This document shows, in pieces, positions 20,987-37,693 of a stretch of DNA of 64,000 bases. This stretch comes from an uncultured Myxococcales bacterium (GTDB lineage Bacteria; Myxococcota_A; UBA9042): NCBI GenBank assembly GCA_903896545.1, contig CAITYF010000202.1, forward strand, positions 1 to 64,000, written 5' to 3'. Numbering within the stretch: position 1 is the first letter of the stretch; each line of letters begins with the position of its first letter. Made by a program: the position numbers and the translations under genes. The notes under the pieces were generated by a model. The model was not told where the DNA came from. It made no database searches and saw only the letters and a program-made list of their open reading frames with translations.

Positions 20987-21108
20987 CTCGTTCCGAATAT
21001 CTCCAACGCGATTGAATCACCGCGGAGGTCGTGCGTTGAAGAGTCAGGAGCGAGCGGCAGACCGTCCAAGGACGCAAGCCGCAGAGTGATGCATCTGGCG
21101 TCCAAAGT

Positions 21109-21124
21109 TGGCGCGAAACTTGCA
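21109..21124 (+). promoter_or_regulatory. sigma54-type promoter of the monohaem cytochrome c gene
   Basis: TGGCGCGAAACTTGCA matches the -24/-12 consensus TGGCAC(G)-N4-TTGCA with one substitution and correct GG-GC spacing. It would give a leader of roughly 125-130 bases before the ATG at 21249. Supported by the same promoter class at two nearby cytochrome operons. Confidence 0.6.
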
Positions 21125-21248: not shown

Positions 21249-21596
21249 ATGCGTCGTTACATTCTCGCGTTTGCCGTCACTGCCATCACCGCCGCCCCCT
21301 TCGCAGCCCAGGCCGCGACCGGCAAGGAAATTGTCGTCGAGCAGAAGTGCACCAAGTGCCACAGCATCAAGGCGGAAGGCGTCGCGGCCGCTGAAGATAA
21401 GCCGACCATCATCGACTTGTCCGGGGTGGGCAAGGACCACGACGTGGCGTGGTTCAAGGGCTGGCTGAACAAGGAAATCGAGCGCGACTCGATCGTGAAG
21501 AAGGGCGAGAAGGCCAAGCACAAGATCGCCTTCAAGGGCACGCCGGCGGAACTCGACACGGTTGCCGCGTTCCTGAAGTCGCTGACCAAGAAGTAA
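21249..21596 (+). CDS. periplasmic monohaem cytochrome c
   Basis: 115 residues from the ATG at 21249, preceded by GAGGAG. Signal peptide AFAVTAITAAPFAAQA, then a single haem site CTKCH at about residue 34 (KCTKCHSIKAEG). The mature domain of about 90 residues has the usual C-terminal helix with DTVAAFLKSL. A soluble class-I-type electron carrier is inferred; no obvious Met ligand is seen (the mature part lacks Met), so the sixth ligand may be His or Lys, or absent. It is followed by a strong terminator, so it is monocistronic. Placed between the sigma54 system regulators and a sigma54-type promoter, it may shuttle electrons for the same pathway. Confidence 0.88.
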   Translation: MRRYILAFAVTAITAAPFAAQAATGKEIVVEQKCTKCHSIKAEGVAAAEDKPTIIDLSGVGKDHDVAWFKGWLNKEIERDSIVKKGEKAKHKIAFKGTPAELDTVAAFLKSLTKK

Positions 21597-21707: not shown

Positions 21708-21743
21708 TGCCGAAAATTCGGCAGCCGCGCCGAAAATCGGGCA
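21708..21743. promoter_or_regulatory. paired TGCCGA-N4-TCGGCA operator sites upstream of the kinase gene
   Basis: Site 1, TGCCGAAAATTCGGCA (21708-21723), has perfect 7-bp arms. Site 2, CGCCGAAAATCGGGCA (21728-21743), is degenerate and starts 20 bases later, two helical turns. The same motif occurs between the divergent cytochrome operons (31440-31613). I infer binding sites for the NtrC-type regulator encoded downstream, implying autoregulation. Confidence 0.6.
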
Positions 21744-21807: not shown

Positions 21808-21823
21808 TGCCGAAAAATCGGCG
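21808..21823. promoter_or_regulatory. third TGCCGA-N4-TCGGC(A/G) operator site
   Basis: TGCCGAAAAATCGGCG, 100 bases downstream of site 1 and about 84 bases before the kinase ATG. I find no correctly spaced sigma54 promoter for the kinase operon, so binding here could repress as well as activate. The remainder of the gap 21597-21906 shows nothing else. Confidence 0.55.
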
Positions 21824-21906: not shown

Positions 21907-23469
21907 ATGACGCAGCTACCCTCGAACCTCACATCCTTGCACAAGCACGACGCGATGCGCGCATCGCGGTTGGAAGGTTGCGTGGGAGTGTCGTTGGAAA
22001 ACGCTTCATCTTCAACAACTTCGCAAACGGCCTGTGAGATTGGTCCACATTGTGCAGATTGTCCTCGCTTGGAGGATCTGCCCGTGCCCGTGCTGCGCAT
22101 TGAAAGTCCGCGCCAGAGCGCAGGAACCGTGATTCAGCTGCCGGAGCCCACAGAGCTCGTGGAGCGGCTGAACTGGTTCGTGCGGCTGCGTTGGCGCGCG
22201 TCGGCGGCGATTCTGGGCGTTGTGCTGCTCGCGAGCGCGCTGGAAATCGTCACGGCAAAGACGACGCTCGTGGCGCTTGGACTCGCACACCTGCTCGGCA
22301 ACGTGGCGTTCAGCGCGATCGCGAAGCGCGTGTCGGGGACGACATCCCGACAGGTGCTGCAGAATCTACTGACGGTGCAGATTCTCTTTGATCTGGCGAT
22401 GCTCATGTACCTCCTGCATTTCGCCGGTGGTGCTGACAACCCGTTCATGATGCTCTCCGTCTTCCACATGGCTTTTGCCGGGATGCTGCTGCCGTTGCGC
22501 AAGGCGCTGGCGATCGGCGTCTTCACGGGGCTCCTGTACGCACTGATGGTGCTGGCGGAGACGTCGGGCGTGCTCGCGCATTACCCGCTGCTGATCGGTC
22601 ACGCGGGGCAAGTGCCGGTGCCGCCGAGCCTGTGGTCTTCGCCGCTCTACATCGTGGGCTACATCGCGGCGTACAGCCTGACTGGCCTGGGCGTGATCGT
22701 GTTCGTGCACGACCTGGTGCACCGCATTCGCGAGGCGGAGGCGCTGCGTCGACAGCACGAGCAGTTGGCGCAGGCGCGCGAGCGTCTGGCGCGCATCGGC
22801 AGTCTGGTCGCGGGCGTGGCGCACACAATCCGCAATCCTCTGCACGGGGTGCTGTCCTGCATCGACATGCTGCAGCAGCGGATCGACCGCCAGGATGGCA
22901 GCGCCGCGGAAATTCTCGACCTGATGACCGAGGGCGTGAACCGAATCGAGAACGTGACGAGTCGGCTTCTGGTCCTCGCGCGCGAAACGCCGACGCCGTC
23001 AGTGCCCGTCGACATTGGCCTTTTGGTGCAGGACGCGATGCAGTTTGCCGAAGTTCGGGCGCGCGCGCGTGGCGTGGAAGTGCACCTGGAGATTCAGGAA
23101 GTGCCGCAGCTGCCCGTCAATACCGAGCGGCTGACGGATGCTGTGAGCAACGTAATCGACAACGCCATTGACGCGTGCACAGCGAAGGACAGCGTGACCG
23201 TACGCATTCAGCCGACGCCCGCGCCACTCGAAGGCGTGCGGATCGAAGTCGCGGATACGGGTGCGGGTATCGCGGAAGATGAGATCGCGCGGATCTTCGA
23301 GCCGTTCTTCACGACCAAGCCGGTCGGCGAGGGCACGGGGCTCGGACTGGCGATCACGCGACAAGTGGTGGAAGACCACGATGGCGATATTCGGGTGACG
23401 AGTCTGCTGGGTTCCGGGACGACGATCTGCATCGACCTGCCGCTGAAACCGACGGCGAGGGCGGCATGA
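21907..23469 (+). CDS. RegB-like membrane sensor histidine kinase with quinone-site motif
   Basis: 520 residues. The N-terminal 60 residues are cytoplasmic with cysteines at 25, 43, 49 and 52 (the last in HCADCP). About six membrane segments span residues 95-268. Residues 174-180 read GGADNPF, the GGxxNPF heptapeptide that in RegB/PrrB of proteobacteria contributes to ubiquinone sensing. A coiled linker leads to the kinase core: H-box VAHTIRNPLHG (His316), N-box NVIDNAIDA, G1 DTGAGIAED, F-box FEPFFTTK, G2 GTGLGLA. The inferred signal is the redox state of the quinone pool, possibly combined with the Cys cluster. The stop overlaps the next start as ATGA, so it partners the NtrC-type regulator. 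An alternative start is ATG 21955. Confidence 0.87.
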   Translation: MTQLPSNLTSLHKHDAMRASRLEGCVGVSLENASSSTTSQTACEIGPHCADCPRLEDLPVPVLRIESPRQSAGTVIQLPEPTELVERLNWFVRLRWRASAAILGVVLLASALEIVTAKTTLVALGLAHLLGNVAFSAIAKRVSGTTSRQVLQNLLTVQILFDLAMLMYLLHFAGGADNPFMMLSVFHMAFAGMLLPLRKALAIGVFTGLLYALMVLAETSGVLAHYPLLIGHAGQVPVPPSLWSSPLYIVGYIAAYSLTGLGVIVFVHDLVHRIREAEALRRQHEQLAQARERLARIGSLVAGVAHTIRNPLHGVLSCIDMLQQRIDRQDGSAAEILDLMTEGVNRIENVTSRLLVLARETPTPSVPVDIGLLVQDAMQFAEVRARARGVEVHLEIQEVPQLPVNTERLTDAVSNVIDNAIDACTAKDSVTVRIQPTPAPLEGVRIEVADTGAGIAEDEIARIFEPFFTTKPVGEGTGLGLAITRQVVEDHDGDIRVTSLLGSGTTICIDLPLKPTARAA

Positions 23470-24872
23470 CCGATGGTGCGTCTGCGGCTCTGAGTCCACC
23501 GCTGCGGGTACTGGTTGTCGACGACGGCCGACTCGTGCGTGAAACGACCATGCGGCAACTGCGCGACGCGGGTTTTCCGGCGGATGCGGTCGAAAACGGG
23601 TATCGCGCGCTGGACCTGCTGGCGATGGGCGACTGGGACGTCGTGCTGTGCGATTTGCGCATGCCCGGCATGGACGGTCTGGAGCTGCTCAAGACCATTC
23701 GCGCCGAGTATCCGAGCGTCGACGTCATCGTGATGACCGCGTTTGGCACCGTGAAGACCGCGGTGACGGCGATGCAGGACGGCGCGGCCGATTACCTGAC
23801 CAAGCCGTTTCACTTTCAGGAGTTGGAGTTGCGACTGCGGACGCTTGCGCAATTGCGCACGTACCGGCGGCAGGTCTCCAACCTGCGGACGCTCATCGAG
23901 AACGACGCCGCTTCGCGGCGGATTTTGGGACAGTCGCCGCAGATTCTGCAGGTGGTCAAGCTCGTGCACACGTTCGCGGCGCACGCTGTGCCGGTTCTGA
24001 TCACCGGCGAGACGGGAACGGGTAAGGAAGTCGTGGCGCGCGCGCTGCACGAGGCGGGACCGCGGGCGATGGGGCCGTTTGTGCCGATTCCGTGCGGCGC
24101 GATTCCGACCGAGCTCGCGGAAAGCGAACTGTTTGGGCACGAGAAGGGCTCGTTCACCGGCGCGACAGGTGTGCGTCAGGGGGCGTTTGAGCGCGCGCAC
24201 AAGGGAACGCTGCTTCTGGACGACGTCGATGATCTGCCGCTGAACCTGCAGGTGAAGTTGTTGCGCGCGTTGCAAGAAGGCTCGTTCCAGCGCGTCGGTG
24301 GTAACCGCGAAATCACGGTGGACGTGCGGGTGATCGCGACGACCAAAGTCGATCTGGGCGACGCCGTGGCGAAGGGCAAGTTTCGCGACGACGTGTTTTA
24401 CCGGCTGCGGGCGCTGGAAATCCGTTTGCCGCCGTTGCGTGAGCGCGGGGAGGACGTTCTGCTGCTGGCACAACACTGCCTGCAGCGGTTCGCTCACGAT
24501 TCGGGCAAGCAGGAACCGCCGCTCTCGCCCGAAGCTGCCGCCTGTCTTCGGCGCTACAATTGGCCGGGCAATGTGCGCGAGCTGCGCCATGCGATGGAGT
24601 CGGCGCTGACGCTCTGCGCCGATGGTCCAGTCGGCCCGGAGCACTTGCCGGCGTTCTTGCACGGGGAGCGGGGGGAAGCACACACGTCCGGCGAGTTGTT
24701 CACGTTGCACCTGGAAGGGCGCGATGCCGTGGCGATGCCGGAATTGGTCCACCGCGTCGAAGACGCGCTGATCCAGTGGGCGATGCGCAAGGCCGGTGGG
24801 CAGCAGTCCAAGGCGGGTGAGATTCTGGGGCTGGCTCGGACGACGTTTCAGAGCAAGCTGAACCGGTCTTAG
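23466..24872 (+). CDS. NtrC-family sigma54-dependent response regulator
   Basis: 468 residues in the order receiver - AAA+ - Fis-type HTH. Receiver: Asp19/20, acceptor Asp63 in CDLRMPGMDG, Thr91 and Lys113. AAA+: Walker A GETGTGKE (181-188), sigma54-contact loop GSFTGA (228-233; Ser replaces the usual Ala) and Walker B LLLDDVDDL, where the usual catalytic Glu of DE is Asp (253). The C-terminal helix-turn-helix is in AGGQQSKAGEILGLARTTFQSKL. It would be phosphorylated by the overlapping RegB-like kinase and activate sigma54 RNA polymerase. Nearby palindromes and -24/-12 promoters identify likely targets as the multihaem cytochrome operons and itself. Confidence 0.93.
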   Translation: MTDGASAALSPPLRVLVVDDGRLVRETTMRQLRDAGFPADAVENGYRALDLLAMGDWDVVLCDLRMPGMDGLELLKTIRAEYPSVDVIVMTAFGTVKTAVTAMQDGAADYLTKPFHFQELELRLRTLAQLRTYRRQVSNLRTLIENDAASRRILGQSPQILQVVKLVHTFAAHAVPVLITGETGTGKEVVARALHEAGPRAMGPFVPIPCGAIPTELAESELFGHEKGSFTGATGVRQGAFERAHKGTLLLDDVDDLPLNLQVKLLRALQEGSFQRVGGNREITVDVRVIATTKVDLGDAVAKGKFRDDVFYRLRALEIRLPPLRERGEDVLLLAQHCLQRFAHDSGKQEPPLSPEAAACLRRYNWPGNVRELRHAMESALTLCADGPVGPEHLPAFLHGERGEAHTSGELFTLHLEGRDAVAMPELVHRVEDALIQWAMRKAGGQQSKAGEILGLARTTFQSKLNRS

Positions 24873-25225: not shown

Positions 25226-26326
25226 TCACTGGTGGCACGGCGTGCAGGCAGGCGAGGTCGCCTTGTCCTGATTGCTCTGCCAACCCGCGGGGTGCGGGTT
25301 GCCGCCAGGCGCGCCAATTCGGTGACACGTGACGCAGTTCGACGCCGCGCCGCGGTCGTGGCATGCCGCGCAGGACACCGCATCGCGTCGCGCCGCATCG
25401 CCGTGGCTTTCGCCGCTGCCGCGCAACAGCCAGCCACCGGGGTGCGGGCTGGTCTTGCTTCCCAATGCGCCCGTCTGGCCAACGCCAAACCGATCATGGC
25501 ACGCCTTGCACGAACTCAACTGGTGGCAAGCCTGGCACGACTTGCTGTCCAGTTTGGCTTCCATCGGGTGGCGGGAAATCCAGTCACCGCGGTGATGCGC
25601 CATCGAATCCGGCTGATTCAACCGCAGCTGCGACGGCCGCATCGGCACGTTGCTCCGGCTATGGCACTCTGCGCACGTCTCGACCTTATGGCAGTGCGCG
25701 CACGTCTGATCCGTGCCGCGCGCCTGTGATCCGTGGCGGTGCAGCCAGTCGCCGCTGTGGTCGAGGTACTTCCACAACGCCTTGGTGTCGGTATTGCGCA
25801 GCGAGCCCGCCTTGTGGCAGAGGTCGCAGTTTTCCTTGTCAAAATCGGTCTTGTGGCATTCGACGCACTTCAGTTCCATCAAGTCCAAGCGGTAGTCCGA
25901 GATCTTTTTGGCTTCCTTGATGCTGCCGTGGCACGAGTCGCACGACACCGGCGTGGCGTCCGCCGGCAACGTCAGCGTCAAGTGCTTCTCGTGCGAGAAG
26001 ATGACGCCGGTGACGCGGCTGCTTTCCAGAAGCGTCGCGGTCTCCTTGCTGTAGGTCGCCGGCGTGTCGTGACACTCGTCGCACTTATGTGGAATTTCGC
26101 GCTTTTCGTCCAAGCTCTTGTTCTTGGCGATGCCGCCGTGACAGTCAGCGCAGTCGATTTTTTCCACGACGGCGTGCTTGTTGTGCGAGAACACGTAGGT
26201 GTCGCGCGGGCTCTTTTCGCCGCGGCTCCACGAGCCAACGAGGTAGGCGCACGCCGGCACGAAGACCAGGATGAGGCCCAAGGCGACCATGCGCGCGAGG
26301 CCGGAGGTCAGTCGGTTGTGAATCAC
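25226..26326 (-). CDS. 12-haem periplasmic cytochrome c
   Basis: 366 residues. An N-terminal hydrophobic segment (LGLILVFVPAC) could be a membrane anchor, or a weak lipobox with Cys26. Twelve CXXCH haem sites follow: CADCH, CDECH, CDSCH, CVECH, CDLCH, CAHCH, CAECH, CQACH, CKACH, CAACH, CVTCH and CTPCH, the last at the extreme C-terminus. The early FSHNKH and FSHEKH blocks are typical of c7-like trihaem modules whose His residues ligate neighbouring haems. Third gene of the conduit operon, overlapping the porin gene by 4 bases. By analogy with porin-cytochrome conduits it would be the periplasmic side of the electron wire. Confidence 0.9.
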   Translation of the reverse strand: MIHNRLTSGLARMVALGLILVFVPACAYLVGSWSRGEKSPRDTYVFSHNKHAVVEKIDCADCHGGIAKNKSLDEKREIPHKCDECHDTPATYSKETATLLESSRVTGVIFSHEKHLTLTLPADATPVSCDSCHGSIKEAKKISDYRLDLMELKCVECHKTDFDKENCDLCHKAGSLRNTDTKALWKYLDHSGDWLHRHGSQARGTDQTCAHCHKVETCAECHSRSNVPMRPSQLRLNQPDSMAHHRGDWISRHPMEAKLDSKSCQACHQLSSCKACHDRFGVGQTGALGSKTSPHPGGWLLRGSGESHGDAARRDAVSCAACHDRGAASNCVTCHRIGAPGGNPHPAGWQSNQDKATSPACTPCHQ

Positions 26327-27795
26327 AGGGCACCTCGCATCAGCGGACGATCGTTGGCCGCCAAACCTGGCGTCGTGGGATAGGCGGAACGACCTTCATC
26401 CTCGTCGTCCTTCTTGGGGGGCGGCGGCGGCGCGGCCGGGGCAGGGCGGAAGAGTGCGTCGGTGATGGTCAGGGAGACCAGCGCCATCGCCTGCGACGTG
26501 AAGTAAGGATTCGACCAGATCTGGCCGTCGAGACCGGCAGTCAGGCCGCGCGTCGGCGCGTAGCGGACCGCGGCAGTCGCCATCAGCGACTCCGAGACGC
26601 CGCGAACGGGCGAGATGAAGAAGTAGCTGTCCAAGTCCAGCGCGGCGGTCAGCTTGTCTTCAACGACTTCTCGGCTGCCGACGGTCTTGCGGACCTGCCA
26701 CAAGGCGCCCCGGCACCAGATGCGGTACTGGTCGTAGCCGTTATCGCCGTTGAACATGCGGTTGTAGGTGAACCCGGCGCGGTAGCGGCTCAGCGCATCC
26801 AGACGCAGGCCCAGGTTGAGCTGCGCGCGGTAGCCAGCCAGCAGGCCGTCGCCGATGACATAGCGGTCGTACGAGGCGCTGCCGTAGAGAGCGCCCGGCG
26901 TCTTCAGGTCCACGCCGCCGCCGACCAAACCGTCGGTGCGCTGCACGAAGGCGGTGAAGATGGAGTTGCGCGGCAAATACGCGAGCGGGTCGCGGACCTC
27001 AGCGCGCACGAAGACGCCAAGCCAGTCGCGCAGGAGGCGGCCGGAAACGTCGATGCGCGCATCTTGCAGGCCGCGGCCCAGCAGGTCGTAGGCGTACTGG
27101 CCCGTAATCGCAAGGTTCTCGCCGCTGATGCGCAGCGCGTTGGGACGCCAAGCGAAGTCCGCGCCGACTGTGCGACGGGTCGCTTCGGTCGATCCCGAAA
27201 TGTCCTGAATGGACGCCGCGATGTGTCCGGTTGGGGAAGCGCTCCACGCCAGACGTCCACCGACGACAGGCGCGTCGAAGACGTGGTCGAAGCTGCTGAA
27301 CGCCGCCGAGCCACCGTAGGCGTCGAGCCGCAATTTGGCTGGCAAGTAGGCGATGACCGAGGCGCCGTCCATGAACACGTACGGCGTCGCGCCGCTGAAC
27401 ACGAACTGCCGACCGAGCTGCACGCGAATCCGCGTCTTGGCCGTTTGACCTTCCCAGCCCAAGTAGCCGTAGGCCAAGTCCGCCGCGCGCGCTGGTGGGA
27501 GCGAGCCCGACGCGATTTGCTGCGCCGCAAAGCCCGACCCGTAGGCGAACATGCCGGAACCGCCGATGTTCTCGCCGCGCAGATTGAGGATCTGCATGGT
27601 CGGAATCTGCTGTTCCGTCGTATTCAAAGCGCCGGGCACCACGTCGCGAGAAATCGTCGTGATGCTTTTGGCCGTCAGGTGCAACGTGCCGGCTTCTTCC
27701 GGCTCCTCGGCCCAAACCGGCTGCGCGGCGAGGCCCGCAGTGAGCCCCATTGCCAGCAGGATGTGCCGCAGCTTTGCGTTCAGTTGCGCGTTCAT
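26323..27795 (-). CDS. outer-membrane porin of a porin-cytochrome conduit
   Basis: 490 residues with signal peptide ending PVWA. The body is an array of amphipathic beta-strand segments with aromatic girdles (for example YGYLGWEG, RVQLGRQFVF, GSASYDRYVIGDGLLAG, RYRAGFTYNRMF), as in outer-membrane barrels. A Pro/Asp/Glu-rich stretch follows near 455-470. The start overlaps the stop of the giant cytochrome gene and its stop overlaps the start of the 12-haem cytochrome gene, both by 4 bases. The order cytochrome lipoprotein - porin - periplasmic cytochrome fits the Pcc/Omb-type conduits of metal-reducing bacteria. Direct homology to OmbB or MtrB cannot be claimed from sight. Confidence 0.8.
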   Translation of the reverse strand: MNAQLNAKLRHILLAMGLTAGLAAQPVWAEEPEEAGTLHLTAKSITTISRDVVPGALNTTEQQIPTMQILNLRGENIGGSGMFAYGSGFAAQQIASGSLPPARAADLAYGYLGWEGQTAKTRIRVQLGRQFVFSGATPYVFMDGASVIAYLPAKLRLDAYGGSAAFSSFDHVFDAPVVGGRLAWSASPTGHIAASIQDISGSTEATRRTVGADFAWRPNALRISGENLAITGQYAYDLLGRGLQDARIDVSGRLLRDWLGVFVRAEVRDPLAYLPRNSIFTAFVQRTDGLVGGGVDLKTPGALYGSASYDRYVIGDGLLAGYRAQLNLGLRLDALSRYRAGFTYNRMFNGDNGYDQYRIWCRGALWQVRKTVGSREVVEDKLTAALDLDSYFFISPVRGVSESLMATAAVRYAPTRGLTAGLDGQIWSNPYFTSQAMALVSLTITDALFRPAPAAPPPPPKKDDEDEGRSAYPTTPGLAANDRPLMRGAL

Positions 27796-30700
27796 GGATT
27801 CACCATTCCGTTGACGTGCCAGCCGTCTTTCGTGTTCAAGGTGCCATCAGGGTTGACCGTCTTCGAGTGGCAGAGGGCGCAGGACGCTGTGCCCCAGGTC
27901 GGGTCGACGTACGGGTGACCGGACGCGACTGACGGCGCCACGCCGTGGCAGGAGTTGCACGCGAGCCCCGGCTTGTTCCACACCGGCGAGGTGGCCACGC
28001 CGTCAGCCAGCGACACGCCGTGGCAGTAGACGTTGGAGCAGGTCATCGTGGCCGGATTGTAGTCTGGCGTGAAGCCCTTGATGGTCGCCTTGCCGTTGGG
28101 GAACTTGATTGAGTCCAACGTGCCGGTCAGGTGGCCCGCCTGACCAACAGTGGTCGGCAGCTGGTGGCAGCTCTCGCACGCAATGCCACCGCCGGAGTAG
28201 ACGTTGCCTTTCAAGTGCGCGGCGTGCGCGCCGACGGTTGGCAGCGTCGGGTCGGTCTGACCGTTTACGTCGGGCGGCGGAGCGGCTGAACCGTTGCCGC
28301 CGTGGCAGGCGTCGCACGAGGTCGGAAGAACCACGTCGATGGTGCCGTTCACGTGCGCGCCGTTCGGTACAAAGCCCAGGTTGGCATCCACCGTCGTCGA
28401 ATGGCACTTGTTGCAGGCGAACATCTTGGGGTGTTCGGGTTTGGTCGGCGGGGCATCGTGACATGCGCCGCAAGTGGTCGTCGCGATGGCGAAGTCGATC
28501 TTGCCGTCCGCGTGCGTGCCCACGTCCAGAACCTTGTCGTCCGAACCGACCGATGTGGCGTGGCACAGGTGACAAGACTGAACCGCTGGCTGCAACTGCG
28601 GGTGTTTCCCGTTGTTCGGCGGGGCTTGGTGACAAGCCGTGCAGTCCGCCGCTGCCGTCACCTTGATGTCGACCTTGCCGTTGCGGTGATTCGCCGAATT
28701 CGCGATCGTCATGAACGCGCCAGCTGTCGCCGCGTGGCACGTTTCGCACGCCATCGACTGCGGGTGGTTGTTGATGGTCGGCGGCGCGCCGTGACAGCCG
28801 AAGCAGTTGGCGTTGGCCGACAGCGCGACGTCCACCGTGCCGTTCAAGTGCGTGCCGCCCGGTACGATGCCATTCAAGATCGTCGCCGTCGTCGTGTGGC
28901 AGCCTTCGCAGTTGGCCGCGTTCGTCGGGTGGTTGGGCGTCGTCGGCGGTGCGCCATGGCAGGCGTTGCAAACCGCGTCCGCGGCCAGCACCACGTCAAT
29001 CTTGCCGTTCTGGTGTGCTCCACCTGCAAGGATTTGCTTGCTCGCGTCGACCGTCGTCACGTGGCAGCCTTCGCAGTTTTCCAAGGTCTTCGGGTGCTTG
29101 GCGGTATTCGGCGGAGAGCCGTGACACCCCGCGCAGTCCGCGGTGCCACTCAACACGACGTCGATCTTGCCATCGTAGTGCGTGCCGCCTGCGATGATCT
29201 GCTTGTTCGCCGCGACGCTCGAAATGTGGCAGCCCGCGCAATCGGCGGTCGTCACTGGGTGTTTCGCGCTGATCGGCGGGGCCCCGTGGCAGCCATTGCA
29301 GTCCGCCGTCGCGGAAAGTACCACATCCTTCTTGTCGTTCATGTGCGCGCCGCCCGCGACAATCTGCTTGTTCGCGTCGACGGTCGTCGCGTGGCAGCCT
29401 TCGCAAGCAGCCGTCGTCACGGGGTGCTTGGCGCTCACCGGCGGCGCGCCGTGGCAGCCTGCGCAATTGGCGTCTGCACCGAGGGCAACCTGACTCTTGC
29501 CATCCATGTGCGTGCCGCCCGACACGATGTGCTTGTTCTTGTCCACCGTCGTCGTGTGGCAGCCTTCGCAGTTGGTCTTCGAATCCGTCACTGGGTGCTT
29601 CGCGCTTCCCGGCGGGTTCGGCAGTACCTTGTGGCAGTCGTAGCAGTTGGCGTTGTCGGAAAGCGCAACGTCGTTCTTGCCGTTCATGTGCGTGCCGCCG
29701 AGGACGATTTGCTGGTTCACGTCAACCGTCGTCGTATGGCAGCCTTCGCACTTCGACGCCGTCAACGGGTGCTTCGGCGAGGTCGGCGGAGACGGCGGCG
29801 CACCGTGGCAGCCCGCGCAGTTGACCGACGTGCCCAACACCACATCTTCCTTGGTGTTCATGTGCGCGCCACCGGCGATGATGTGCTGGTTCACGTCAAC
29901 CGTCGTCGTGTGGCAGCCTTCGCAGACCGTTGCGGCGTTGACGACCGGGTGCTTGACCGAGCCCGGGCCGTTCGGCAGCGTCACGTGGCAGTCGATGCAG
30001 GTCGCATTGTTGGAGAGCGCCACGTCGATCTTGCCGTTGTTGTGGGCACCGCCGGCGACGATCTTCTGATTCACGTCCACGGTCGTTGTGTGGCAGCCTT
30101 CGCATTTCGCCTTGGTTACCGGGTGTTTGGCGCTGACCGGCGGGTACGCGTGACATCCGGCGCAGTCCACATCGGGGCCGAGCGTGACGTCGACTTTGCC
30201 GTTGTTGTGGGTGCCACCTTCGACGATCTTGCCGGCCGTCGTGACGGTCGTCGTATGGCAGCCTTCGCAATTGCCGTTCGTCTTCGGGTGTTTGTCGCTG
30301 ACAGGCGGCGCGCCGTGGCACCCCGCGCACGGCGGATTTCCCGACAACACCACGTCAACCTTGCCGTTCATGTGCGGCCCACCTGCAATAATCAGCGTGT
30401 TGCTGTCGACCGTGGTCGAGTGGCAGCCCGCACACTTTTCCGTCGTCTTGGGGTGCTTGTCGCTCACCGGTGGCAAACCGTGGCAGCCGTCGCACTTGGT
30501 CTCCGGGCCGAGCTCCAGATCGACTTTGCCGTTGATGTGGTTGTTCTTGTTGGCGATGGTCTTGTTCGGTCCCGCCGTCGATGCGTGACAACCGATGCAG
30601 TCGCCCGTTTGCGGGTGAGGTGCGGCAGGCGGCGCGCCGTGGCAGGAGTCACAGGCACGCTGGCTGTCGTCCACGACGGTCCACAGCGGCTTGCTGTTCT

Positions 30701-31244
30701 TACCCGGCGTCTTCAGTTTGGAACCGTGGCAATACACGTTGGAGCACGTGAAGTTACCGGAGTCGTACACGGGCGTCGCACCGCCTGCGAGCGCGAGTCC
30801 GCCAAACGTGACTGTCGCGCGGTATTCGGTCGTGTCGACTGGCGCGTCGATGTGGTCGGTATCCCACAAGCTCGTCGGCACCTTGTGGCACGAGGTGCAC
30901 GCCATCGCGTTGTTGCTCAGCGTGCCGCGCACGTGCGTCTGGTGTGCGCCAACGCCGCGCCAAGCGGTCGAGGTCGCGCCGCCAATCGCGTTCGGCGGAG
31001 CAGGGTTGGCCGCGGTCCCGTGGCACGCTCCGCAGGTCGGGTCAAAGGTCGTTGTCGTCGCGTCGTCCGCCACGTCGACCGCGTCACCGCTCACCGCGTC
31101 TGCGCCAGCTGGGTCGTAGCTGCGCGCCGTGTCGCAGCCAGCGAGAGTCAGCAGCAGAAAGCTGCCGGTCGCCAGCCAGAAACGCCCAGAACTGCCGCGA
31201 GCGTTGCGCATCACCAGTCCGCCGATTGTCTTTTGCCTGTCCAT
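27792..31244 (-). CDS. giant multihaem lipoprotein cytochrome c, about 36 haem sites
   Basis: 1150 residues from the ATG at 31244 (AGGAG upstream); an in-frame start at 31301 would fall inside the sigma54 promoter. Signal peptide with lipobox LTLAGC (Cys37). I count 34 CXXCH motifs plus two CX4CH sites of the form CSNVYCH, one near each end of the protein; the latter are typical of Geobacter-type giant cytochromes. The middle consists of 14 dihaem modules of about 53 residues with consensus CAGCHGAPP--KHP--CEGCHTTT and GGTHMNGKIDV. This could form an extended haem wire. As a lipoprotein encoded with a porin it is probably at the outer membrane, facing outward. Asp at +2 would mean inner-membrane retention by the enterobacterial Lol rule, which may not apply here. 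Confidence 0.9.
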   Translation of the reverse strand: MDRQKTIGGLVMRNARGSSGRFWLATGSFLLLTLAGCDTARSYDPAGADAVSGDAVDVADDATTTTFDPTCGACHGTAANPAPPNAIGGATSTAWRGVGAHQTHVRGTLSNNAMACTSCHKVPTSLWDTDHIDAPVDTTEYRATVTFGGLALAGGATPVYDSGNFTCSNVYCHGSKLKTPGKNSKPLWTVVDDSQRACDSCHGAPPAAPHPQTGDCIGCHASTAGPNKTIANKNNHINGKVDLELGPETKCDGCHGLPPVSDKHPKTTEKCAGCHSTTVDSNTLIIAGGPHMNGKVDVVLSGNPPCAGCHGAPPVSDKHPKTNGNCEGCHTTTVTTAGKIVEGGTHNNGKVDVTLGPDVDCAGCHAYPPVSAKHPVTKAKCEGCHTTTVDVNQKIVAGGAHNNGKIDVALSNNATCIDCHVTLPNGPGSVKHPVVNAATVCEGCHTTTVDVNQHIIAGGAHMNTKEDVVLGTSVNCAGCHGAPPSPPTSPKHPLTASKCEGCHTTTVDVNQQIVLGGTHMNGKNDVALSDNANCYDCHKVLPNPPGSAKHPVTDSKTNCEGCHTTTVDKNKHIVSGGTHMDGKSQVALGADANCAGCHGAPPVSAKHPVTTAACEGCHATTVDANKQIVAGGAHMNDKKDVVLSATADCNGCHGAPPISAKHPVTTADCAGCHISSVAANKQIIAGGTHYDGKIDVVLSGTADCAGCHGSPPNTAKHPKTLENCEGCHVTTVDASKQILAGGAHQNGKIDVVLAADAVCNACHGAPPTTPNHPTNAANCEGCHTTTATILNGIVPGGTHLNGTVDVALSANANCFGCHGAPPTINNHPQSMACETCHAATAGAFMTIANSANHRNGKVDIKVTAAADCTACHQAPPNNGKHPQLQPAVQSCHLCHATSVGSDDKVLDVGTHADGKIDFAIATTTCGACHDAPPTKPEHPKMFACNKCHSTTVDANLGFVPNGAHVNGTIDVVLPTSCDACHGGNGSAAPPPDVNGQTDPTLPTVGAHAAHLKGNVYSGGGIACESCHQLPTTVGQAGHLTGTLDSIKFPNGKATIKGFTPDYNPATMTCSNVYCHGVSLADGVATSPVWNKPGLACNSCHGVAPSVASGHPYVDPTWGTASCALCHSKTVNPDGTLNTKDGWHVNGMVNP
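28405..30655 (-). repeat. tandem array of 14 dihaem coding modules, period about 160 bp
   Basis: Within the giant cytochrome gene, near-regular units of about 160 bases each encode one CxxCHGxPP haem and one CEGCHTTT haem. The central units (about 29.0-30.4 kb) are most alike at both DNA and protein level, while the outer ones are diverged. This fits growth by internal tandem duplication. Confidence 0.85.
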
Positions 31245-31296
31245 ATCTCTCGTCTCCTGGCGCAGCATCAGGCGCCCCTGGACTGCTGGGGTCATT

Positions 31297-31312
31297 TGCA
31301 AAGACCGTGCCA
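31297..31312 (-). promoter_or_regulatory. sigma54 promoter of the leftward conduit operon
   Basis: On the minus strand this reads TGGCACGGTCTTTGCA, an exact match to the -24/-12 consensus TGGCACG-N4-TTGCA. The start codon of the giant cytochrome gene lies about 53 bases downstream. Confidence 0.85.
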
Positions 31313-31439
31313 GCTAAGGTGCCTTGTGGCGCCTGTTTGCCACACACGCATCGTTTAGGGAAGTGGGCAACTGTCATGGCTTTTTCACAGACCGCCAAGG
31401 TCCGCGAATTTCACGCCCATTCCCGCTGCCTCACGCGGC

Positions 31440-31476
31440 TGCCGAGAACTCGGCATGCCCCGCCGAAATTTCGGCA
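31440..31476. promoter_or_regulatory. paired TGCCGA-N4-TCGGCA sites, likely enhancer of the divergent operons
   Basis: TGCCGAGAACTCGGCA (31440-31455) has perfect arms; CGCCGAAATTTCGGCA (31461-31476) starts 21 bases later. They lie about 130-165 bases upstream of the leftward sigma54 promoter, the usual distance for enhancer-binding-protein sites, and match the motif upstream of the NtrC-type regulator operon. Confidence 0.65.
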
Positions 31477-31597
31477 CAAGAAGATGATTGTGATTACGGG
31501 TTGTTGCGCGACACTGCTCGGTTCGGCGCGCGAATGCCCCCAGCGGTGACCGCCGATAGCAGGGGGAGTGGTAATAAAAACAAACAGATACCATGTG

Positions 31598-31613
31598 TGC
31601 CGATTTTTCGGCA
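31598..31613. promoter_or_regulatory. TGCCGA-N4-TCGGCA site upstream of the rightward sigma54 promoter
   Basis: TGCCGATTTTTCGGCA, about 107 bases upstream of the rightward -24 element. It has the same half-sites as the pair at 31440-31476 and those at 21708-21823. Confidence 0.65.
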
Positions 31614-31648
31614 GACCTGCGGTCGTGATGCGGCGTTTCGTCGCGCGG

Positions 31649-31666
31649 ACTTGATCCAGATCAAGT
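31649..31666. promoter_or_regulatory. FNR/CRP-type box between enhancer and rightward promoter
   Basis: ACTTGATCCAGATCAAGT is a perfect palindrome with 8-bp arms and contains TTGAT-N4-ATCAA, the exact FNR consensus. It is about 54 bases upstream of the -24 element of the rightward sigma54 promoter. Anaerobic or nitrogen-oxide control by an FNR/DNR-type protein is inferred; no such protein is encoded in the window. The remainder of the 544-base gap shows no gene. Confidence 0.6.
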
Positions 31667-31719
31667 GGCATTCTCGCGCTTCGCCGATAAACGTGATCGG
31701 TGGCGGCAATTTTCCGACT

Positions 31720-31735
31720 TGGCAGGGTTCTTGCA
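31720..31735 (+). promoter_or_regulatory. sigma54 promoter of the rightward quinol-dehydrogenase operon
   Basis: TGGCAGGGTTCTTGCA matches the -24/-12 consensus with exact GG-GC spacing (one change at the sixth base). The first gene starts 53 bases downstream, the mirror image of the leftward promoter. Confidence 0.85.
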
Positions 31736-31788
31736 AACGTTCCTAACCGGGTGCGCTAAGTGCAGCCCACATGAGAGAGGAGCTCTAG

Positions 31789-32421
31789 ATGTTTTCACGC
31801 GATACCCTTCACCTCTGGATTCTGGCGGGTGCGTTGGCTCTGGTTGGCGTCGGATTTTTTACCGTACGCAGCCTGACCGTGCCACCGTCCTTCGGCCAGT
31901 TTGGCCACTACCGCGGCGCTGCGCTGCAGATTGCCACTGACAAGGAGCGCAAGCTCACGACGCGTGGCGACTGCGGCGAATGCCATGCAACCTTGAAACA
32001 CGAGATGGGCAAGAGCCACGAGCGGGTGCACTGCATTGAGTGCCACGGGGAGGGTAAGGCGCACATGACGGCGTGCAAGACGGCCAAAGCGTCTGCCAAG
32101 GCGGGCGACGCCTTGACGTGCGACAAGTCGAACTTGATGCCTACGAATATCAAGGACATTTGCTTGCACTGTCACCAGGAAATGGTCGGCCGCGCGAAGA
32201 AGCATCCGCAGATCGTGTTCACCGAACATATGAAGGACATGGATCCCAAGGATCCCAAGAGTCCGTTGGTCTGCATGGAATGCCACTCGCCGCACAATCC
32301 GGCCGAGGAACTGAGCGACGACAAGGAAGAGGACAAGGATGAAGAGGCCAAGCCGGCTGAAGCAGCGACACCGACCGCTGCCCCGGCTGCCCCGACGCCC
32401 GCTGCTGGAGGTGCCCAATGA
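31789..32421 (+). CDS. NrfH-like membrane-anchored tetrahaem cytochrome c
   Basis: 210 residues, with GAGGAG upstream. An N-terminal membrane anchor (LWILAGALALVGVGFFTV) is followed by four haem sites CGECH, CIECH, CLHCH and CMECH between about residues 62 and 165, then an acidic Ala/Pro-rich tail. The architecture fits NrfH/NapC-type or related quinol-linked cytochromes that pass electrons to the periplasm. No recognisable terminal reductase accompanies it. First gene of the rightward sigma54 operon; its stop overlaps the next start as ATGA. Confidence 0.87.
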   Translation: MFSRDTLHLWILAGALALVGVGFFTVRSLTVPPSFGQFGHYRGAALQIATDKERKLTTRGDCGECHATLKHEMGKSHERVHCIECHGEGKAHMTACKTAKASAKAGDALTCDKSNLMPTNIKDICLHCHQEMVGRAKKHPQIVFTEHMKDMDPKDPKSPLVCMECHSPHNPAEELSDDKEEDKDEEAKPAEAATPTAAPAAPTPAAGGAQ

Positions 32422-33272
32422 GCTGCTGCGATAAGAAAGGTGCAAAGGACACCTGCTGCGAAACCAAACACGAGCCCACCGGGGTGATGGATGCGAGCGA
32501 ATCCCGCCGCGAGTTCATCTGGGACGCGGTGAAGAACTTCACGTTCGGTGCGCTGACGCTCACCGCCATTCCGATCTTCATCGAGAAGGCGGACGCTGAA
32601 GAAGTGCACACCGACAAAGACGGCAAGGAGAAGACGGGGCACACCGTGCTCTTTGGCTACCTGGTCGACACGACAAAGTGCATCGGCTGCGGCGGTTGCA
32701 TGTTGGCGTGCAAAAAGGAAAACGACGTCCCCGACGGCGAATTCCGCACCTGGGTCGAGCGCTACGTCTATTACAAGGACGGCTCGGTGCGCGTCGACGT
32801 GAATTTGAAGGGCTCTTTCGCCTTCACGGAACTGCCGCCGATCGACAAGGAGACGGTGGAGAAATCGTTTTTCGTGCCCAAGCTGTGCAACCACTGCACG
32901 GATACGCCGTGCATCCAGGTGTGCCCGGTCGGCGCGTCGTTCAAGACAAAAGAAGGCGTGGTCCTCGTCGACTACGAACAGTGCATTGGCTGCGCGTACT
33001 GCGTGCAGGCTTGCCCGTTCGGCACGCGCTTCATCAACACCAAGACGCAGACCGCCGACAAGTGCACGTGGTGCTACCACCGCATTCAGCACGGCGAGAA
33101 ACCGGCTTGCGTCGACGTGTGCCCGACCGGCACGCGCACCTTTGGCGACATCAACGACCCCGAGAGCGAAATCTCCAAGACGTTGGCTGAAAACCGCATT
33201 GACGTGCTGAAGTCCTACCTCGGCACGCGTCCCAAGACCCGCTACATCGGCCTGACCGCGGAGGTGGTGTGA
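32418..33272 (+). CDS. Tat-exported ferredoxin-type subunit with four [4Fe-4S] clusters
   Basis: 284 residues. A twin-arginine motif SRREF (29-33) precedes a hydrophobic stretch, so it is exported folded. Four cluster-binding Cys sets are visible: CIGCGGCMLAC, CNHCTDTPCIQVCP, CIGCAYCVQACP and CTWCYH...CVDVCP. This is the NrfC/HybA/PsrB pattern, an electron-transfer subunit that docks on NrfD. Unusual: the first 15 residues carry two CC pairs (MSCCDKK...TCCE) ahead of the Tat motif. 4-base overlaps on both sides imply a tightly coupled operon. A lipidation or metal-binding role for the CC pairs is speculative. Confidence 0.92.
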   Translation: MSCCDKKGAKDTCCETKHEPTGVMDASESRREFIWDAVKNFTFGALTLTAIPIFIEKADAEEVHTDKDGKEKTGHTVLFGYLVDTTKCIGCGGCMLACKKENDVPDGEFRTWVERYVYYKDGSVRVDVNLKGSFAFTELPPIDKETVEKSFFVPKLCNHCTDTPCIQVCPVGASFKTKEGVVLVDYEQCIGCAYCVQACPFGTRFINTKTQTADKCTWCYHRIQHGEKPACVDVCPTGTRTFGDINDPESEISKTLAENRIDVLKSYLGTRPKTRYIGLTAEVV

Positions 33273-34435
33273 TGATGCCCCATGCTGCTGAATTTATTTT
33301 CCCCAATGACATGAACGGCGTTGCCTGGACTGTCATGATTGTCCTCTACCCTTACATCACGGGCCTCGTCGCCGGCGCGTTCGTCGTCGCGGCGCTCTAT
33401 CACGTGTTCAACTTCAAGGTGTTCGCGCCCGTCGCCCGCTTCGCGCTGGCTGCGTCGTTCTCCTTCGCCGCGTTTGCGACTCTGCCGTTGCTCCTGCACC
33501 TGCATCAGCCGCAACGCGCGTTCTTCATCATGTTCATGCCGAATTTCACCTCGGCGATGGCAGGCTTCGGCTTCATCTACAGCTTCTACTTAACGTTGTT
33601 GGCGGTTGAAATCCTGCTCGTCTTCCGCAGTGACATCGTCGCGATGGCCAATGAGAAGGGCGTGAAGAGCTTGCTCTACAAAGCGCTGTCGCTCGGCGTG
33701 CTGCGTGAGACCGCGAAGTCGAAGGAAATCGACCAAAAGTGGATTCACGTCCTCTCCATCGTCGGTATCCCCGGTGCCTGCGTGCTTCACGGCTACGTCG
33801 GTTTCATCTTCGGCGGCATCAAGGCGAACCCCTGGTGGTCGACGGCGCTGATGCCGGTCATCTTCCTGAGCTCGGCGATCGTGTCGGGCGTGGCGATGCT
33901 GATCCTGCTCTACGTCATCATCTCCAAGATGCGCCGCGTGAGCGTGGATGACGAGTGCCTGCGCGTGATGATGAAGCTCCTGTGGCTCTTCCTCATCCTC
34001 GCGGTGACGTTGGAATCGCTGGAAACGCTGAACATGGCGTACGAAGCCGGCGAGGAGTGGCACATGATCCATCGCCTCATCACGGAGAAGTTGCGCTTCA
34101 GCTTCATCTACGTGCAGTTGCTGATCGGCTCGGCGATTCCGTTCGTCCTGCTGCTCATCGGCTGGATGAAGAAGATCGGCCCGCGCACCCGCGTGACACT
34201 CGGCACGATCTCGTCGCTGCTGGTGCTCATTCAGGTGTTGTCGATGCGCTTCAACGTGGTCATCGGCGGTCAGATGCTCAGCAAAAGCTTCCGCGGCTTT
34301 GTGGACTACATCCCGGAGTGGCACGGTCGTGAAGGCATCTTCGTGGCGATTGGCGTATTCACGCTGCCGTTCATCTTGCTGACGGCCGTGTCGCAGATCC
34401 TCCCGGTGTGGAAGGTCGACGCGCACGATCACTAG
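33269..34435 (+). CDS. NrfD/PsrC-family quinol-oxidising membrane subunit
   Basis: 388 residues with about nine or ten hydrophobic segments and no cofactor motif, as expected of NrfD-like proteins that bind menaquinol. Typical features include the early WTVMIVLYPYITGLVAGAF segment, LHQPQRAFFIMF-like Pro/Arg loop, and GxxGxxLHGYVGFIFG-like IPGACVLHGYVG. With the tetrahaem cytochrome and four-cluster ferredoxin it makes a three-subunit menaquinol:cytochrome c oxidoreductase, comparable in composition to the Cbc complexes of Geobacter. No molybdopterin catalytic subunit is present, so electrons must leave via cytochromes. A strong terminator follows. Confidence 0.9.
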   Translation: MMMPHAAEFIFPNDMNGVAWTVMIVLYPYITGLVAGAFVVAALYHVFNFKVFAPVARFALAASFSFAAFATLPLLLHLHQPQRAFFIMFMPNFTSAMAGFGFIYSFYLTLLAVEILLVFRSDIVAMANEKGVKSLLYKALSLGVLRETAKSKEIDQKWIHVLSIVGIPGACVLHGYVGFIFGGIKANPWWSTALMPVIFLSSAIVSGVAMLILLYVIISKMRRVSVDDECLRVMMKLLWLFLILAVTLESLETLNMAYEAGEEWHMIHRLITEKLRFSFIYVQLLIGSAIPFVLLLIGWMKKIGPRTRVTLGTISSLLVLIQVLSMRFNVVIGGQMLSKSFRGFVDYIPEWHGREGIFVAIGVFTLPFILLTAVSQILPVWKVDAHDH

Positions 34436-36293: not shown

Positions 36294-36499
36294 CGGTTCT
36301 CTCCAAATTAGGGCACAAACCAGCGTGTGCGCGCTGCCGGTATTCCGGCGCAATCGCTGGGTCATTTACGCTTCACGAGCGCGAACTGCAAGCCCATCTT
36401 GCGTATTCGCCACCGAATCTGCGGGATCGCGCAGCAAACTTGGCGGTCACGCCCGCTTGCGACTAAGCTTTGGCTTGGTCTGTGGGGGGCCTTCTGACG

Positions 36500-37693
36500 A
36501 TGCGACACGCAAATTCTGGGCTCGCCTTGGCCAGCGACGCGACGGCAGAGGACGTCGTCGGATTCCTGCGCCAGTTGCCGTTCCTGAAGTCACTACACGA
36601 CGCTGAAGTTCTGCTGCTCGCCCGCGCTGCCGAACAGTTGTCCTACGTCAGCCGCCAAGTGGTCTTGCAGGAAGGGCAGGCGTCCGACGCGATCTACCTC
36701 GTCTTCCGCGGAAGCGTGGAAGTGGTCAAGCATGCCCGCAGCGATCCCCGCTACGCGGACGATCTGGCGGACGGACTGGCGATTCATCAGATCGAGCGCG
36801 GATCGGTCTTTGGCGAAATGTCGTTCATCGACGGCGACCTGACGTCGGCGACGATCCGTGCAGCGGCGGACTGCGAGCTCCTGCGTCTGTCGCACGCGAC
36901 GCTCGCGCGACTCGCCGAAGAATCGGGCGTGCCGATCCTCGACCGCCTGAACGGAGCCGTCGCCCAAGCGGTGATCCGCCGTCTTCGCCTGATCTCCGAC
37001 CAGCACGTGCGCGCGCTGCAGCGTGAACTCAACGAGATTCGCCTGCGCCACGCGTTTGAGCGGTTCTTCATGGCGACGATGGTGCTCTTTGGCATCGCCA
37101 GCCTCGTGCAAAAGCTGATTCAGGAAGGAACCTCTCCGTGGCCGCACATGGCCTATTCCTGGGGATTCCTTCTGCTGTCCGTCGCGCCGATGGCGTGGTT
37201 CGCGCTGCGGCAGAAGCGGCCTTGGGCCGATTTTGGCATGACGCTTCTGGGGTGGCGCAAGGCGGTCGTCGAAGGTCTGGCGATTGCGTCCGTGCTCACG
37301 GCCCTTTCGCTCGTTGTGGCGCGCGTGTGGCTGCGCGAGCCGGGTGAGCCGCTTGTGACGTGGGGCTCGGTGAGTCACTACAACACGGCGCAGTTCGCTG
37401 TTTTCGTCCTCGGTTACCCGGTGCACTGCTTCTTGCAGGAGTTCATCGGTCGCGGCGTCATTCAGACTTCGCTCAGCCACCTGCTGCCGCGCGCGCGCAA
37501 GTCCTTGCCGTTGCTGCTGACATCGGCGCTTTTTGGCATCTACCACCTGTACGTTTCCGTTTCCTTTGCGATTCTGACGGTCGTCGTGAGCATTCTCTTT
37601 GGCTGGCTCTACAATCGGCACAAGACGCTCGTGGGCGTCACGGTGCTGCACGCTTCGATTGGGCTGGCGAGTGTGGCGTTGGGGTTCAACTAA
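36500..37693 (+). CDS. cyclic-nucleotide-binding domain fused to CPBP intramembrane protease-like domain
   Basis: 397 residues from the ATG at 36500 (a TTG at 36470 is possible). Residues about 15-150 form a cNMP-binding domain: LQEGQASDAIYLVFRGSVEV and GSVFGEMSFIDGDLTSATIRA, the phosphate-binding cassette with R near its end. A helical linker of about 50 residues follows. The C-terminal half has about eight membrane segments with CPBP (Abi) motifs: QEFIGRGV (EExxxR-like, first Glu replaced by Gln), FGIYHLY and a third His in LHASIG. CPBP proteins are Rce1-like glutamic proteases. The fusion suggests protease or scaffold control by a nucleotide; activity is uncertain given the Gln. Confidence 0.8.
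   Translation: MRHANSGLALASDATAEDVVGFLRQLPFLKSLHDAEVLLLARAAEQLSYVSRQVVLQEGQASDAIYLVFRGSVEVVKHARSDPRYADDLADGLAIHQIERGSVFGEMSFIDGDLTSATIRAAADCELLRLSHATLARLAEESGVPILDRLNGAVAQAVIRRLRLISDQHVRALQRELNEIRLRHAFERFFMATMVLFGIASLVQKLIQEGTSPWPHMAYSWGFLLLSVAPMAWFALRQKRPWADFGMTLLGWRKAVVEGLAIASVLTALSLVVARVWLREPGEPLVTWGSVSHYNTAQFAVFVLGYPVHCFLQEFIGRGVIQTSLSHLLPRARKSLPLLLTSALFGIYHLYVSVSFAILTVVVSILFGWLYNRHKTLVGVTVLHASIGLASVALGFN

Follow-up and report, generated by a model that had tools for sequence, protein, structure and literature searches.

The DNA examined here, a stretch of 64,000 nucleotides (the window), is part of contig C202 of a 6.76-Mb Myxococcota metagenome-assembled genome (MAG; 272 contigs, 94.75% complete) and carries a candidate locus for electron transfer between the quinone pool and the cell exterior. 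Among named relatives, those nearest to it at the locus are MAGs of uncultured Myxococcales. Six open reading frames (ORFs) lie at 25226-34435 in two divergent sets, three leftward and three rightward, and consecutive genes overlap by exactly 4 bases at all four junctions within the operons. A first-pass annotation of the window had described both this six-gene anatomy and the overlaps, and every ORF and every junction was found as described. The six genes are as follows.

25226..26326, minus strand: cytS, a 12-haem lipoprotein cytochrome of 366 amino acids (12 CxxCH), candidate wire within the barrel
26323..27795, minus strand: predicted outer-membrane beta-barrel porin of 490 amino acids, no CxxCH (22 strands by AlphaFold2; Foldseek matches)
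27792..31244, minus strand: giant multihaem lipoprotein of 1150 amino acids with 34 CxxCH and 2 CxxxxCH (PF09698, TIGR01904, motifs)
31789..32421, plus strand: cytR, a tetrahaem cytochrome of 210 amino acids with an N-terminal membrane anchor (4 CxxCH, PF14537)
32418..33272, plus strand: four-cluster ferredoxin of 284 amino acids with the twin-arginine motif SRREFI (PF13247, cysteine count)
33269..34435, plus strand: NrfD-type quinol-reactive membrane subunit of 388 amino acids (PF03916)

By their Pfam and NCBIfam matches, cytS, cytR and the giant fall among multihaem proteins of the c7/c3 type. The giant resembles the GSu_C4xC__C2xCH cytochromes in exceeding both curated cut-offs (PF09698, 42.1 bits against 21.7; TIGR01904, 111.3 bits against 27), although these models name a motif and no role, whereas the giant in the window is bound in one operon to a porin and a multihaem lipoprotein. 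Its start is likely the ATG at 31244, which follows a GGAG and gives a protein of 1150 amino acids with the lipobox LTLAG-C; the TTG at 31301 called by the program was rejected, as it falls inside a sigma-54 type site (31297-31313). A PDB sequence search with the giant found no relative. Membership in MtrCAB was also rejected, with the giant reaching 17.7 bits against a TIGR03507 cut-off of 209.3 and no match to an MtrB-type porin. Four more giant frames of the CxxxxCH type are present in the same genome (contigs C25, C133, C14 and C163; loci L072-L075), with 44, 44, 41 and 20 CxxCH motifs, and an FNR-type box lies just upstream of the giant on C25.

The 490-residue product had been taken for a barrel in the first-pass annotation, and this assignment withstood structure prediction: the AlphaFold2 model, built on a 54-row alignment, contains 22 beta strands (mean predicted local distance difference test score [pLDDT] 86.9, predicted template modelling score [pTM] 0.79). 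Foldseek searches with the model retrieved large barrels, namely AlgE, the PapC/FimD ushers and TonB-dependent receptors. A PDB sequence search with the porin gave no relative (three rows, all with E of at least 0.47). Scanning 54 porins against Pfam yielded five weak families, each common to at most three porins and none of the MtrB type, for which Pfam has a family.

The lipobox cysteine of cytS (Cys26) was kept in 16/16 rows of a first alignment and 53/54 rows of a wider one, and a cytS profile matched PDB chain 3ov0 (GSU1996, the 12-haem nanowire cytochrome of Geobacter) at 5.4e-22. The cytS in the window is without the third haem site, which all 24 of its nearest relatives have. That this is a defect unique to the window was rejected on the wider alignment, where the site is present in 39 of 54 rows and 14 relatives of another branch are likewise without it; going by these rows, a cytS without a third haem is a normal form outside the window's branch. 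With a frameshift in mind, the other reading frames were inspected by eye and no CxxCH was seen, and an assembly error may lie behind the missing site. Over its N-terminal half the protein shares 49-51% identity with its genus sisters, which share 83-89% with one another; over the C-terminal half its identity to them is 80-84%.

Among the rightward products, cytR matched PF14537 at 25.9 bits, barely above the cut-off of 25, and has one hydrophobic segment (residues 8-26). The ferredoxin, with 16 cluster cysteines and four N-terminal ones, is of the TtrB/DsrO/NrfC-like four-cluster type and scored under all equivalog cut-offs shown. The NrfD-type protein passed the PF03916 cut-off at 130.9 bits and has nine predicted hydrophobic segments; a PDB sequence search with it found no relative. 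NrfD, a four-cluster ferredoxin and a multihaem cytochrome are thus encoded in one operon, the composition of an NrfD quinol module free of a catalytic subunit. Assignments to NrfABCD (NrfC 164.3 of 377.6 bits, NrfD 50.2 of 347.6 bits) and DsrMKJOP (DsrO 186.5 of 200 bits, DsrP 49.4 of 350 bits) were both rejected. A CxxCH scan of all window frames of at least 80 residues found no further ORF with more than one motif, leaving a monohaem cytochrome c (21249-21596) as the only plausible haem protein beyond the six genes; the earlier statement that no soluble terminal reductase is encoded therefore holds for multihaem reductases in the window. Elsewhere in the genome, on contig C31 (L159:7585-14162), a second 4-haem ORF, a ferredoxin and an NrfD stand in a row, accompanied by a sigma-54 type regulator and a kinase ORF with two CxxCH motifs.

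The monohaem gene, a regulatory gene pair and a set of promoter-like sites, none of which the first-pass annotation had mentioned, are listed below.

21108..21124, plus strand: sigma-54 type -24/-12 site TTGGCGCG-N4-TTGCA ahead of the gene for the monohaem cytochrome c, one mismatch to TTGGCACGNNNNTTGCA
21249..21596, plus strand: small monohaem class I cytochrome c, candidate periplasmic carrier (PF00034)
21708-21723 and 21808-21823: two TGCCGA-N4-TCGGCA palindromes ahead of the kinase gene, conserved in L046 and L048
21907..23469, plus strand: histidine kinase with six predicted membrane helices (HisKA, HATPase_c, 6TM_PilS; hydropathy)
23466..24872, plus strand: NtrC-type response regulator with a sigma-54 activation domain (PF00158 at 217 bits, PF00072, PF02954)
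31297..31313, minus strand: leftward sigma-54 type promoter CTGGCACGGTCTTTGCA (site search, conservation)
31440-31455, 31461-31476 and 31598-31613: three TGCCGA-N4-TCGGCA palindromes in the divergent region, candidate activator sites
31651..31664: FNR-type box TTGATCCAGATCAA before the rightward operon, in the window and three genus sisters
31719..31735, plus strand: rightward sigma-54 type promoter TTGGCAGGGTTCTTGCA (site search, conservation)

In the divergent region, two sigma-54 type sites point outward and the three palindromes are common to both operons; both halves of the locus appear, from these motifs, to share candidate control sites. A window-wide search returned six sigma-54 type sites where 2.5 were expected, and 2 of 100 shuffles gave as many. 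With at most one mismatch, such sites are present in 15 of the 18 regions examined in the window's family (6/9 outside the genus), against a background over those loci, sites included, of 0.034 per kb per strand. Exact matches to the 15-base palindrome TGCCGA-N4-TCGGC gave 17 rows over the two strands of the genome, representing 13 distinct places; five of these fall in the 852 bp that the two regulatory regions make up (0.001 expected from the other eight). The adjacent kinase and NtrC-type regulator may act via these palindromes, as their proximity suggests; the kinase passed the 6TM_PilS cut-off of 27 bits narrowly, at 27.5 bits. The monohaem cytochrome passed the PF00034 cut-off (34.4 bits) and has orthologues in L048 (90%), L046 (86%), L049 (70%) and L054 (42%), and similar sigma-54 type sites precede the gene in L046, L048 and L049.

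The FNR-type box suggests, as a sequence motif, anaerobic control of the locus. Two of the three sisters carry one changed half-site base, and the box is absent from the corresponding regions of two further relatives (G016 and G021). Its exact 16-base form occurs at six places in the genome and that of a reversed control at none. Three of these places stand before a gene, namely the rightward operon, the 44-haem giant on C25 and a HemN-like gene; of the others, one adjoins the gene of a monohaem cytochrome and one falls within a Ccs-like gene, with one more place besides (gene names assigned by eye).

Across genomes, the porin was matched in 25 of 89, own genome counted, and the giant, porin and cytS occur together in 23 of the 24 others, split across two contigs in two of them; in the remaining genome, G065, the giant is replaced by a 23-haem protein. 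Judged from gene order, the retention of the leftward trio in relatives excludes chance for the locus. A search for the same six-gene divergent arrangement, as had been proposed, found it kept in the three genus members for which longer stretches were available (L046-L048), in two of which the kinase/regulator pair adjoins the six genes. Gene order differs further away. In G016 and G021, all genes lie on one strand as cytR-fer-nrfD-[9-haem lipoprotein]-giant-porin-cytS, with a palindrome and sigma-54 type sites before cytR; a convergent regulator and kinase follow cytS in G016, and in G021 a convergent regulator precedes the contig end. In G011, nrfD-fer-cytR has as its divergent neighbour a 6-haem ORF, which runs off the contig and is 42% identical to the window giant over 289 residues. 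A NapC/NirT-type tetrahaem protein and an MtrC-like decahaem stand in G034 where the NrfD module would be, and the divergent neighbour in G007 encodes ResB/CcsA-like cytochrome c biogenesis proteins (assigned by eye), with sigma-54 type sites in facing orientation. The 9-haem lipoprotein, which has collagen-like repeats, stands with the conduit in several same-family genomes (L049:4615-7617, L050:4768-7674, L054, L055 and L058), and that of L050 has a carboxypeptidase-regulatory domain as well; the G016/G021 protein was not found in the window's own genome in a search run without a positive control. Four class-level relatives (L062, L063, L065 and L093) carry, after the conduit, a histidine kinase ORF that is possibly a haem-c redox sensor; it has a single CxxCH, located in L062 in the sensor region.

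A wider survey found 72 loci with a 12/13-haem cytochrome of the cytS kind, from Myxococcales, Myxococcota, Deltaproteobacteria and similar groups, plus one Oligoflexales and one Proteobacteria. The porin adjoins the cytochrome in 71 of the 72, the remaining locus being cut by a contig end; a porin-like gene adjoining a periplasmic multihaem cytochrome gene, the arrangement that marks a porin-cytochrome (Pcc) conduit, is therefore found in the window and at 71/72 loci. A quinol module lies near the conduit at 26 of the 72 loci (12 NrfD-type, with ferredoxin and NrfD, and 14 NapC-type; 7/7 NapC-type proteins checked, of the 14, passed the PF03264 cut-off). Where at least 8 kb are available on both sides (n=30), eight loci are NrfD-type, eight NapC-type and 14 neither. 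The first-pass annotation had called the linking of the two halves in one locus unusual, which these counts (26/72 overall, 16/30 well-covered) contradict, as does the presence of cymA and of mtrH/mtoC in mtr/mto clusters elsewhere (excerpts of PMC6295460). Labels were available for 34 of the 54 rows of a cytS tree, on which the NrfD label requires six changes, five of them forced by starred branches, indicating that the conduit-quinol linkage arose or was lost several times. In terms of gene order, the linkage is recurrent in the phylum and not obligatory.

These patterns bear on whether the adjacency of the two operons is accidental and they belong to separate pathways, with NrfD feeding a reductase elsewhere. 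The conduit is alone at the locus in some relatives, and ferredoxin-NrfD with a 9-haem cytochrome occurs without a conduit on stretches of G008, G029, G030, G035, G046 and G049, which speaks for such a scenario. Against it stand the palindromes common to both operons, the co-directional order of the two halves in G016 and G021, and the repetition of the linkage in separate branches. With three NrfD genes in the 6.76 Mb of the window's genome, moreover, the likelihood of chance proximity within 20 kb would be about one in a hundred there. We regard separate pathways as very unlikely; the shared regulatory sites and the one-strand arrangement instead bear out the earlier idea of one chain.

Taken together, the locus probably represents a chain for anaerobic respiration in which menaquinol supplies the electrons and an acceptor outside the cell receives them, with both operons and the carrier gene under sigma-54 promoters. 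NrfD would oxidize the quinol, presumably menaquinol, in the inner membrane and pass electrons via the four-cluster ferredoxin to the membrane-anchored tetrahaem cytR. From cytR, electrons would reach cytS through a periplasmic carrier, perhaps the monohaem cytochrome, or by direct contact. The putative seat of cytS is in the 22-strand porin, where it would cross the outer membrane, and the 34-haem lipoprotein, if located at the surface as the first-pass annotation assumed, would pass electrons from cytS to the final acceptor, which might be a metal oxide, humic matter or a neighbouring cell. Transcription of the two operons and of the monohaem carrier gene would start at sigma-54 promoters, with the kinase/NtrC-type pair acting through the common palindromes and an FNR-type regulator adding anaerobic control. 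The gene content, the barrel prediction, the conserved gene order, and the promoter-like sites and palindromes together with their conservation are all computed results.

Several results weigh against this chain. The porin has no match to a Pfam or NCBIfam porin family. The structure model of cytS is weak (pTM 0.47), and a fold search with this weak model as query returned no match at E 0.001. No sigma-54 type site was seen in three of the 18 same-family regions (L052, and L152 twice) or in any of 10 regions from other families. A loose palindrome search of the window, allowing two mismatches, was not significant (10 against 6.1 expected; 12 of 100 shuffles gave as many as the window), so the palindrome argument rests on the exact sites and their conservation. 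The six genes are kept in G001 with no kinase/regulator pair within 7.4 kb past cytS. Moreover, three members of the same family (G007, G010 and G013) have the conduit with no close nrfD orthologue (best E 1e-5 to 1e-8) and neither an NrfD nor a NapC module at the locus, which indicates that the halves are separable. The chain had been called complete in the first-pass annotation, and this stands for the window locus and fails for an obligatory unit.

A further point against the proposed chain concerns the envelope position of the giant. The residue after the lipobox cysteine (+2) is Asp in 12/12 same-family giants (that of L050 read by alignment), in contrast to nine giants from other families, in which it is T or S in six, S or L in one and unreadable in two; same-family cytS proteins carry A, G or S. 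In Escherichia coli, Asp+2 keeps lipoproteins in the inner membrane (excerpts of PMC3222651), and by analogy the giant's Asp+2 may signal inner-membrane retention. The 34-haem giant would then be an inner-membrane-anchored wire spanning the periplasm from cytR to cytS rather than a surface reductase. However, 8 of 12 inner-membrane lipoproteins of Myxococcus xanthus use Lys+2, and PulA of Klebsiella requires Asp+2 before the type II system exports it to the surface (both from excerpts of PMC3222651). The conserved residue hence fits two readings by analogy: the giant is kept in the inner membrane, like E. coli lipoproteins with this residue, or it is exported to the surface, like PulA. Described porin-cytochrome clusters, moreover, join a porin and a periplasmic cytochrome with an outer-membrane cytochrome (excerpts of PMC4245776), and a periplasm-spanning giant seems to us unlikely. 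Its stricter version, in which Asp+2 holds the giant in the inner membrane of this Myxococcota family as a permanent wire from the NrfD complex to the porin cytochrome, is rather unlikely. If true, the whole chain would be one continuous conductor with its parts co-made under one sigma-54 regulator, in contrast to the shuttle-based chains of Geobacter and Shewanella.

The outward direction of the proposed chain also has an alternative, in which electrons from outside the cell, supplied for instance by Fe(II) or a partner cell, would enter via the conduit and reduce quinone at NrfD. Direction is not fixed by sequence, and quinol enzymes of the CymA and CbcL/MtoC types are thought to be bidirectional (excerpts of PMC6295460). 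The genome has two haem-copper oxidase (COX1) genes that could serve as a sink, and on their account the organism is probably a facultative aerobe. The FNR-type box, in contrast, points to anoxic expression, its genomic places including the HemN-like gene and the 44-haem giant (by eye), and we consider inward flow improbable relative to the outward chain.

The locus joins two known module types, a porin-cytochrome conduit and a quinol module of the CbcSTU/SirCD type. Pcc conduits, such as OmbB-OmaB-OmcB of Geobacter and the two-gene pcc of Anaeromyxobacter, likewise place a barrel gene beside a multihaem periplasmic cytochrome gene, and the Pcc cytochromes of Anaeromyxobacter and Kuenenia have 12-14 haems in 338-344 amino acids (excerpts of PMC4245776). 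In comparison with Pcc, taken by description only, the cytS in the window has a conserved lipobox cysteine and a quinol module adjoins; the giant has 34 haems, whereas the outer cytochromes surveyed in those excerpts have 1 to 15 typical motifs (PMC4245776). CbcSTU of Geobacter and SirCD of Shewanella similarly combine an NrfD-type subunit, an Fe-S protein and, for CbcS, a c-type cytochrome with no catalytic subunit, a likeness of kind drawn from gene content; the module in the window differs in being divergently paired with an outer-membrane conduit under common regulatory sites. Clusters of the mtr/mto type with cymA or mtrH/mtoC also bring a quinol oxidoreductase and an outer-membrane conduit together (excerpts of PMC6295460), although the window has an NrfD-type rather than a NapC- or CbcL-type enzyme, a barrel with no family match and another outer cytochrome. 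A partial literature search, judged mainly from titles and abstract openings, found no description of an NrfD-linked conduit in Myxococcota. Many unnamed multihaem neighbourhoods are reported from RefSeq genomes (excerpts of PMC11475568), and this locus type may be among them.

Two other ORFs of the window were recorded apart from the locus. One (36470-37693) combines a cyclic-nucleotide-binding domain with a CAAX-type (Rce1-like) membrane protease domain, and a large ORF on the minus strand (46949-49636) has six stretches of the 'Dictyostelium (slime mold) repeat' PF00526.

If the proposed chain is correct, this uncultured member of the Myxococcota would have a compact route from quinol to the outside with common control sites, and these shared sites make joint control of the two halves directly testable. 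The conserved Asp+2 poses a concrete question as to how multihaem giants are placed in the envelope. Relatives of cytS at E 1e-30 are present in 112 of 283 genomes of the phylum, the weaker of which may represent other multihaem families; extracellular respiration could hence be common in the phylum.

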